A stretch of 64,000 nucleotides of DNA from Vulcanimicrobiota bacterium. GTDB taxonomy: Bacteria > Vulcanimicrobiota > Xenobia > Xenobiales > JADMJV01. The DNA is taken from positions 1-64,000 of the forward strand of contig JAHBVR010000004.1 of NCBI GenBank assembly GCA_019637395.1. The letters run 5' to 3'. This document shows positions 23,501 to 25,256 of the stretch, in pieces (position 1 is the stretch's first letter; every line of letters starts with the position of its first letter). The translations under genes were made by a program, and so were the position numbers. The notes beneath the pieces are model-generated. The model saw only the letters and a program-made list of their open reading frames with translations. It ran no database searches and was not told the DNA's origin.

Positions 23501-24394
23501 TCACTGAGGCCGTCGCTTTTCTTCCATTTCTTCCAGGGTGCGCGGCCAGTCGGATTTGAGCAGCCTGGACAGGGAACGGTCGGCCAGCAGTTTGCCGCCG
23601 GTCTGGCAGACGGCGCAGTAGTTGGTCTCGTTTTCGGCGTAGCGGATGCGCTGAATGGGGGAGCCGCACTGGGGGCAGGGTTGCAGGTATTTGCCATGGG
23701 CGGCCATATCGGCGTGGAAGGCGGTCACGCTGGTGGGGAATTTCGGGCCCCATTCGGCCTGCAGCGCATCCCGCCAACTGGCCAGCAATTCGCGGATGGT
23801 ATGAAACAGGCGGGAACTTTCTTCGGGCGAGAGTTGGGTGGTCAGGCGCACCGGCGACAGACGGGCCCGCAGCAAGATTTCGTCGCTGTAGGCGTTGCCG
23901 ATGCCCGAGAACATGGTCGGGTCGGTCAGGGCCCGCTTCAAAGTGTGGCGCCGCGAGCTCAGCATCTCCTGGAATTCCTCGAGAGAAGCTTGCATCACCT
24001 CCAGGCCGCCCGGGTCGTGCTCGGCCACGGCCGCTTCGCCCACGACCAGATGAATTTTGGCTCGCCGCTTGGTGCCGGCCTCGCTCAATCCCAGCCAGCC
24101 GCTTTCGAACTTCCAGCAGATCAAGCAGCCGCCCGGCATTTTGCTTTCGTTCCAGCGAAAGCGCCCGGCGATCATCAGGTGGATGATAAGAAAGTAATCT
24201 TTTTCAAAACCGATCACGATGCGCTTGCCCAGCCGGCGAAGTTCCCGAACTTCCAGGCCGACCAGGTCCTTGAGGGGCGGCTCGACGGTGCGCAGCACGA
24301 AAGGGTCTTTGCGCTGAATTTCCAGCAGTTTCCGGCCCATTAGATGTGGCCGTAACGAACTCAGGTAGAGTTCAATATCCGGATACTCAGGGAT
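23501..24394 (-). CDS. Formamidopyrimidine/endonuclease VIII-type DNA glycosylase, predicted ATC start
   Basis: Fpg/Nei family: LGKRIVIGF, LIIHLMIAGRFRW, SGIGNAYSDEIL helix-two-turn-helix, and a C-terminal zinc finger (CPQCG, CAVCQTGG). The first ATG (24340) would remove the catalytic N-terminus. Upstream in the same frame the sequence reads PEYPDIELYLSSLRPHL, the expected residues 2-18 with catalytic Pro2 and Glu3, preceded by ATC at 24394 where Met should be. No ATG, GTG or TTG lies between. I therefore predict initiation at ATC, overlapping the stop of the upstream NlpC/P60 gene. With that start the protein is 297 residues, slightly long for the family. An assembly error turning ATG into ATC is the alternative. 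Confidence 0.85.
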   Translation of the reverse strand: MPEYPDIELYLSSLRPHLMGRKLLEIQRKDPFVLRTVEPPLKDLVGLEVRELRRLGKRIVIGFEKDYFLIIHLMIAGRFRWNESKMPGGCLICWKFESGWLGLSEAGTKRRAKIHLVVGEAAVAEHDPGGLEVMQASLEEFQEMLSSRRHTLKRALTDPTMFSGIGNAYSDEILLRARLSPVRLTTQLSPEESSRLFHTIRELLASWRDALQAEWGPKFPTSVTAFHADMAAHGKYLQPCPQCGSPIQRIRYAENETNYCAVCQTGGKLLADRSLSRLLKSDWPRTLEEMEEKRRPQ

Positions 24395-25256
24395 TGCGGG
24401 CCTGCTGATTCTGCGTCCAGACGCTCAGGCGGTGGGCTCCCAGGTAGCGGCTTTTGAAATAGTTGTCTTCCAGGCTGGCGCGAATGACCCCGCGCGAAGA
24501 GGAGGCGTGTAGAAAATCCTGGCCGCCCAGGGAGATACCCACGTGGGACGGCCCGGGAAGATAAGTGGTAAAGAAAACCAGGTCGCCGGGCTGGGGCTGG
24601 TCGATGGGGCTGGTCTGCTGAAACTGTTCGTCGGCCAGGCGGGGCAGGCTGTGGCCTGACAGCCGGAAGACCTCTTGCACGAAACCGGAACAATCCACTC
24701 CGTTCGGTGACATCCCGCCCCAGACGTAGGGTGCTCCCTGAAAACGCTGGGCCAACTCCACCACCTGGCCGGGAGCCAGAGGAGTAGGCGAGGGAATGAG
24801 CATGGTGGCGCGCGGAGCCCAGCCTTTGCGGCCGTCGGGCAGAGTCACTTGCTGCCAATCGCCGCTGGGAGGAGCTTCCACGGGGGGAGGCGGCCCCGGC
24901 GTCGCCACCGGAATATTCAAAGTTTGCCCCGCACCCAGGCATTCCAAATCCACGCCTGGGTTCAGGTTGGATAGTTGCTCCAAAGGAACCCCCAGAGTGC
25001 GCGCCGTCTCTCCCGCCGTCAGTTGGCGTTGCGGCCAGCCGTTGACCGGGGTGGGCAGCAAAATGGGTGTGCCGATTTCCAGATGATAGACGTCCAGGCC
25101 CGGATTGGCAGCCAGTACCTCGGCCACCGGCAGGCCGTAAAGGCGCGCCACCGCCGCCACCGTCTGACCGCGCTGCAGCCGGTGGCTGCAACCCGGCAGG
25201 TCGGCTGCTTGAGCGCACAGTTGCAGGCACAGGAACAAGGGAAAGAGTTTTCGCAC
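24387..25256 (-). CDS. LysM-NlpC/P60 cell-wall hydrolase
   Basis: 289 residues with a signal peptide (MRKLFPLFLCLQLCAQAA). Two LysM-like segments follow: residues about 25-70 (HRLQRGQTVAAVARLYGL) and 75-120 (QRQLTAGETARTLGVPLEQL). After a proline-rich linker comes an SH3-like stretch (GWAPRATMLI) and then the NlpC/P60 peptidase at residues about 165-280, with catalytic Cys in VDCSGFVQ, His in PSHVGI and a third polar His in FLHASSSRGV. It likely cleaves peptidoglycan stem peptides in the periplasm or wall. Its stop is in the overlap with the glycosylase gene. Confidence 0.93.
   Translation of the reverse strand: MRKLFPLFLCLQLCAQAADLPGCSHRLQRGQTVAAVARLYGLPVAEVLAANPGLDVYHLEIGTPILLPTPVNGWPQRQLTAGETARTLGVPLEQLSNLNPGVDLECLGAGQTLNIPVATPGPPPPVEAPPSGDWQQVTLPDGRKGWAPRATMLIPSPTPLAPGQVVELAQRFQGAPYVWGGMSPNGVDCSGFVQEVFRLSGHSLPRLADEQFQQTSPIDQPQPGDLVFFTTYLPGPSHVGISLGGQDFLHASSSRGVIRASLEDNYFKSRYLGAHRLSVWTQNQQARNP

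Follow-up and report, generated by a model that had tools for sequence, protein, structure and literature searches.

Organization of the Glycosylase Locus

The locus described here lies in a stretch of DNA of 64,000 nucleotides (the window, i.e., the whole stretch that was analysed) and raises the question of where the translation of a gene encoding a putative DNA glycosylase starts. The earlier note on this DNA had claimed that the frame lacks a usual start codon (ATG, GTG, or TTG) ahead of Pro2 and Glu3 and carries ATC at the position of the initiator methionine, and both statements were confirmed on the minus strand (24394-24392). The ATC and the codons following it (CCT GAG TAT CCG GAT ATT GAA CTC TAC) give the sequence I-PEYPDIELY. 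The frame remains open from the ATC down to the TGA ending at 23501, and in the 5' direction it is next interrupted by the TGA at 24427-24425; none of the three usual start codons occurs in the frame from there until the ATG of codon 19 (24340). The features of the locus are reported in Table 1.

Table 1. Features of the putative glycosylase gene and of its junction with the upstream gene (positions in the window).
Feature	Position	Strand	Remarks
Fpg/Nei-superfamily glycosylase frame	23501..24394	-	297 codons from ATC plus stop; Pfam, dN/dS
Proposed start codon ATC	24392..24394	-	ATC in G000-G003, GTG in G004
Pro2 and Glu3 codons (CCT GAG; catalytic residues)	24386..24391	-	Both invariant in 12 orthologues
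LysM-NlpC/P60 gene, upstream	24387..25256	-	Pfam; TGA stop (24389-24387) inside the glycosylase gene
Weak SD-like AGCAGG, 6 nt 5' of ATC	24401..24406	-	Read directly; kept in G001-G003; function inferred
First usual in-frame start, ATG (codon 19)	24338..24340	-	Rejected; position not common to relatives
Zinc-finger region, four Cys, Asn255 at the place of the Fpg Arg	23600..23683	-	Pfam, residues 238-265; alignments

The 3' end of the NlpC/P60 gene reads AAT CCC TGA, and the two genes share 8 nt (24394-24387, ATCCCTGA), counted from the first base of the ATC to the last base of the upstream stop, which corresponds to a -8 nt overlap geometry. The description of the ATC as overlapping the preceding stop is therefore correct as far as the two genes are concerned, but the ATC triplet does not overlap the stop triplet itself. 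A strong, extended SD sequence like those of the near-cognate genes of S. aureus is not present upstream of the ATC, where only the AGCAGG stretch is found.

The Encoded Protein

The Pfam domains Fapy_DNA_glyco, H2TH, and zf-FPG_IleRS were all detected above their gathering scores; on this basis, the protein is a member of the Fpg/Nei superfamily and a predicted glycosylase/AP-lyase. It shares with Fpg/MutM, to which its best solved relatives belong, these domains, Pro2-Glu3, Lys57, the H2TH motif, and the four-Cys zinc finger, with P2, E3, K57, and the four cysteines being invariant in 12 orthologues. It differs from them in that none of the Fpg and Nei NCBIfam equivalog cut-offs is reached (the scores for the Fpg equivalogs being 105.6 of 203.3 bits for TIGR00577 and 115 of 212 bits for NF002211) and in that Asn255 replaces the zinc-finger Arg of Fpg (Arg260 of L. 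lactis Fpg by alignment position), a residue that binds phosphate (PMC3188539). This Asn is also invariant in the 12 orthologues, which possibly points to a distinct glycosylase subfamily; several Fpg/Nei clades have been described, including BaFpg2, of narrow bacterial distribution (PMC3188539). The AlphaFold model of the protein is poor (pLDDT 66, pTM 0.48, five sequences), and its MutM matches, having TM-scores near 0.45-0.5, merely agree with the result obtained from the sequence.

The PEYPDIELY stretch had been regarded as an exact fit to the start of the family; the stretch is indeed present, but the wording was slightly too strong, as PELPD(I/V) is found in relatives that do not belong to the genus. 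The N-terminal proline of Fpg is the nucleophile (PMC5422863), so that either a downstream start or a fusion with the upstream protein would spoil the expected chemistry.

Conservation of the ATC Codon

The comparison within the genus included five genomes, G000-G004 (Candidatus Eremiobacterota), the window gene being that of G000. The glycosylase gene is present in all five, its identity to the window gene being 89% in G001, 91% in G002, 87% in G003, and 73% in G004. Four of the five genomes (G000-G003) have ATC with the same 8-nt overlap, and G001, G002, and G003 all carry ATCCCTGA at the junction; G004 has GTG at the same codon. In this last genome the GTG overlaps the upstream stop as TAGTG; the frame relation to the NlpC gene differs, but the position of the start codon is the same. 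For three of these genomes (Candidatus Eremiobacterota MAGs and isolate SZAS-1), the ATC was seen again in the records JALHOV010000211, JAFKGI010000014, and JAFEBA010000001. This comparison of the codon in related genomes had been suggested in the earlier note, where ATG at 24392-24394 was named as the result that would speak against the claim; ATG is absent from this position in the three nearest species, all of which have ATC. Outside the genus, the orthologues with a readable N-terminus are seven, starting with ATG (three) or GTG (four). In the orthologue of G006 (L108, C139), the match begins at residue 83 and lies within a longer frame that lacks the N-terminal half, so that either the gene is broken or the assembly contains a frameshift.

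The first usual start corresponds to codon 19 in G000, 33 in G001, 13 in G002, and 14 in G003; hence, no usual start is common to the four ATC species. Between the upstream stop and Pro2, the ATC is the only codon differing from ATG by a single base in each of the four species. A second ATC, located five codons upstream in G000, was rejected as a start, the other three species having no near-cognate codon there. Four related species retain this ATC, which is therefore probably a weak but real start and not a sequencing error.

Among the four ATC species, the whole gene exhibits a dN/dS of 0.045-0.10 at a dS of 0.85-2.2. Six of the codons from 2 to 12 are variable, and in all six the changes are synonymous and fall at the third position; of the ten codons upstream of the ATC, seven are variable, only three of them synonymously, with changes spread across all three positions. 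As judged from these substitutions, the constraint at the protein level reaches from codon 2 onward, up to the ATC. Initiation at ATC, regarded in the earlier note as a requirement of the catalytic N-terminus, is thus supported by the start codons of the genus (ATC in 4/5, GTG in 1/5), by the exclusively synonymous changes in codons 2-12, and by the lack of a common downstream start.

Other Unusual Starts in the Genus

The ATC had previously been treated as a one-off, but other near-cognate starts were found within the genus. The infC gene starts with ATT in all five genomes (L037, L093-L096); in the two genomes compared, its first usual start comes no earlier than codon 19-29. The T2SSF gene (type II secretion F; G000 C23, L173:7411-8625, minus strand) has ATA behind AGGAGG in G000 and behind GAGGAGG in G003; the codons that changed before its first usual start are all synonymous (10/10), and the constraint reaches the ATA. 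In both G000 and G001, a HATPase gene has ATC behind GGAGGAGG and overlaps the 3' end of a putative gcvPB (this assignment being our own reading), and an lplA-like ligase gene has a CTG start in a CTGA overlap; the two genes are neighbours in G000 (C33, L153:770-1699 and L153:1699-2349). Another Fpg paralogue carries ATG in apparently the same 8-nt overlap as the focal gene (ATGCCTGA), and the gene following the lplA-like one has the junction GTGCCTGA (L002, L085, L087, and L109 for these genes).

A different situation is found in a Nei-like paralogue (G000 C15:31095-31877; L130-L133 with its relatives), in which TCG occupies the Met position in G000, G001, and G002. Its junction, TCGCCTGA, has the same geometry as that of the focal gene and is located over the 3' end of a putative transketolase gene, as we read it; in G003, the gene starts with ATG, as TAATG. 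An alignment with G003, made by eye, suggests that the former stop and the ATG were lost through a deletion of about 7 nt. The gene is under selection in the three TCG species (dN/dS 0.11-0.14 at dS 0.77-1.06). Upstream of the proline, the frame contains a TTG seven codons before it in G000 and a GTG twelve codons before it in G002, so that a longer protein is possible for two of the three species; in G001, no upstream usual start exists in this frame. Near-cognate initiation does not account for the TCG, and no explanation for it was found.

Proposed Mechanism and Alternative Explanations

On the whole, it is likely that the translation of this Fpg/Nei-superfamily gene starts at the ATC, probably by means of ribosomes reinitiating after the translation of the upstream gene. 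According to this model, ribosomes ending the NlpC/P60 gene at its TGA would move backward by some bases and begin anew at the ATC (termination-reinitiation). Initiation would take place with formyl-methionine, whose removal by methionine aminopeptidase would then expose the catalytic proline. The weak codon would limit the amount of enzyme and make it dependent on the translation of the upstream gene, and the ATC start might perhaps also be sensitive to IF3. The weakness of the AGCAGG stretch fits a dependence on coupling. Since the efficiency of ATT is about 0.3% of that of ATG in E. coli (cited in PMC10666635), the yield of glycosylase may be low. The anticodon arm of the initiator tRNA is ordinary (GGG CTCATAA CCC); the initiator-tRNA pattern gave one match, versus two for the control pattern, but ARAGORN identifies the matched site as tRNA-Met. 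The pattern for the end of the 16S rRNA gave a single match, which is not rRNA-like, and its reversed control matched equally often; no reliable anti-SD sequence was obtained from it.

The same junction might be read as a programmed +1 frameshift at CCC TGA onto CCT, producing an NlpC-glycosylase fusion. In agreement with a frameshift, all four ATC species retain the CCC TGA, and tRNA-Pro still pairs after slipping by +1 from CCC onto CCT. It is nevertheless very improbable, because the G004 gene is provided with a GTG and lies in the other frame relative to NlpC, and the seven readable orthologues outside the genus begin with ATG or GTG; moreover, within a fusion the proline nucleophile would no longer be N-terminal, and a repair enzyme would be attached to a LysM-NlpC protein beginning, in our reading, with an apparent signal peptide. 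Even less probable is a true start at a usual codon located downstream, which would yield a shorter protein lacking Pro2-Glu3: an ATG is present at codon 19 in the window, but the position of the first usual codon changes from species to species and codons 2-12 are constrained at the protein level in all four. It is equally hard to believe that the ATC arose by an error of assembly or that it represents a mutation by which the gene was silenced, given the agreement of four separate genomes and the low dN/dS values reported above.

If translation does start at the ATC, the codon might still have no regulatory value and be simply tolerated by drift, the coupling to NlpC being sufficient and the overlap tying the base; we give this possibility slightly less than an even chance. 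As the C of the ATC also opens the final NlpC codon (Pro), some of its conservation could be due to the NlpC gene. In addition, the overlap recurs with usual starts, both in the Fpg paralogue and in the gene following the lplA-like one, and this geometry can therefore arise simply from Met-Pro-Glu starts. On the other hand, a single substitution, which would also turn the last NlpC codon from Pro to Ala, would be enough to recover ATG, yet the ATC persists in all four species at the dS values found among them.

The TCG of the Nei-like paralogue, having the same geometry as the focal ATC, may hint at something other than near-cognate initiation. One conceivable, though unlikely, scenario is that the ribosomes of this genus, after termination, reinitiate at a set position next to the stop, almost irrespective of the codon found there. 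If this were true, genes embedded in such overlaps could retain ATC, CTG, or even TCG start sites; should the TCG start prove to be translated, the need for any near-AUG codon would be challenged.

Comparison with Known Near-Cognate Starts

Near-cognate starts are already known in bacteria, and the focal case is unusual in its codon, its overlap setting, and the kind of gene. In Myxococcus, infC may begin with AUC. Established examples are infC and pcnB of E. coli, starting with AUU (cited in PMC9845219 and PMC13009471), and, in S. aureus, infC, ccpN, and citZ (AUA) and cvfC1 (AUU) (PMC13009471). The focal gene shares with them a codon one base from AUG, the lack of a usual start and, as for several of them, conservation among relatives; it differs from them in having AUC, an 8-nt overlap with a stop, and a weak SD-like stretch, and in encoding a DNA repair enzyme. 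The yields of the S. aureus genes were measured, being about 10% of that of AUG for ccpN, cvfC1, and citZ and up to 30% for ccpN (PMC13009471), whereas the focal start is proposed here on the basis of sequence comparison. In the portion of the bacterial literature covered by a non-exhaustive search, the only AUC/ATC starts met with were a reporter mutation (PMC10303841) and a disrupted copy (PMC10210955).

As for the overlap, that of -8 nt is among the short ones typical of termination-reinitiation, being less efficient than shorter ones, according to PMC10666635. The focal pair shares 8 nt just as the -8 nt pairs do (ATGNNTGA), but it starts with ATC rather than ATG, and its coupling is putative. 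A conserved ATC in a coupled pair represents a natural test of the strictness of start-codon selection in post-termination ribosomes. From a practical viewpoint, gene finders accepting only ATG, GTG, and TTG would shorten the enzyme, with the loss of its catalytic residues.

Survey of Start Codons in the Genus

Unusual starts were surveyed by comparing orthologous frames within the genus, the flags being accepted or rejected by eye. The G000-G001 comparison included 297 genes, 10 of which were flagged; four were accepted (the focal ATC, the HATPase ATC, the lplA-like CTG, and the Nei-like TCG) and six were rejected, having a usual start just 3' of the estimated boundary or being low-complexity or shadow frames. 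The infC gene belongs to this set but was not flagged, and was found directly. In the G000-G003 comparison (162 genes), two of the four flags were accepted (the focal gene and the T2SSF ATA). The G001-G003 comparison (220 genes) gave six flags, of which two were accepted (the focal and the Nei-like genes), three were rejected, and one was neither accepted nor rejected. The latter (G001 C80 49840-57079, minus strand, L056-L059 region) is a very long frame, conserved with respect to G003, whose first 98 codons contain no usual start. In an earlier, looser survey of 89 ORFs, the focal gene alone stood out; a further looser one gave 40 flags in 340 ORFs of G000 and 24 in 223 ORFs of G001.

Unusual starts thus amount to 5/297 in the G000-G001 set, or 2/294 without the three genes known beforehand; the former value is not an unbiased rate, since the contigs had been picked for the focal gene, its paralogues, or infC. 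CUG is the start of 0.024% of the annotated ORFs of 69 model genomes (PMC9845219), a rate that comes from annotation and is a different measure from our comparison. A hand-adjusted Fisher table (4/88 unusual starts in coupled genes vs. 1/209 in uncoupled ones, p 0.03) hinted at a concentration of unusual starts in overlaps; it was not relied on, because its margin deviates by about one from the surveyed count and the search had been guided there by two of the four cases.

As for the controls, G025/G039 yielded only six matching ORF pairs and no usable comparison. In genus g6 of the same order (G010 vs. pieces of G011, G012, and G013), 46 genes gave four flags, one of which was accepted (infC, ATT) and two rejected as shadow or repetitive frames, a sample too small to judge the focal genus. 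In the fourth flagged gene, L219 (G010 C8 18785-19670), a GTG in G010 stands opposite an ATC in its G011 counterpart.
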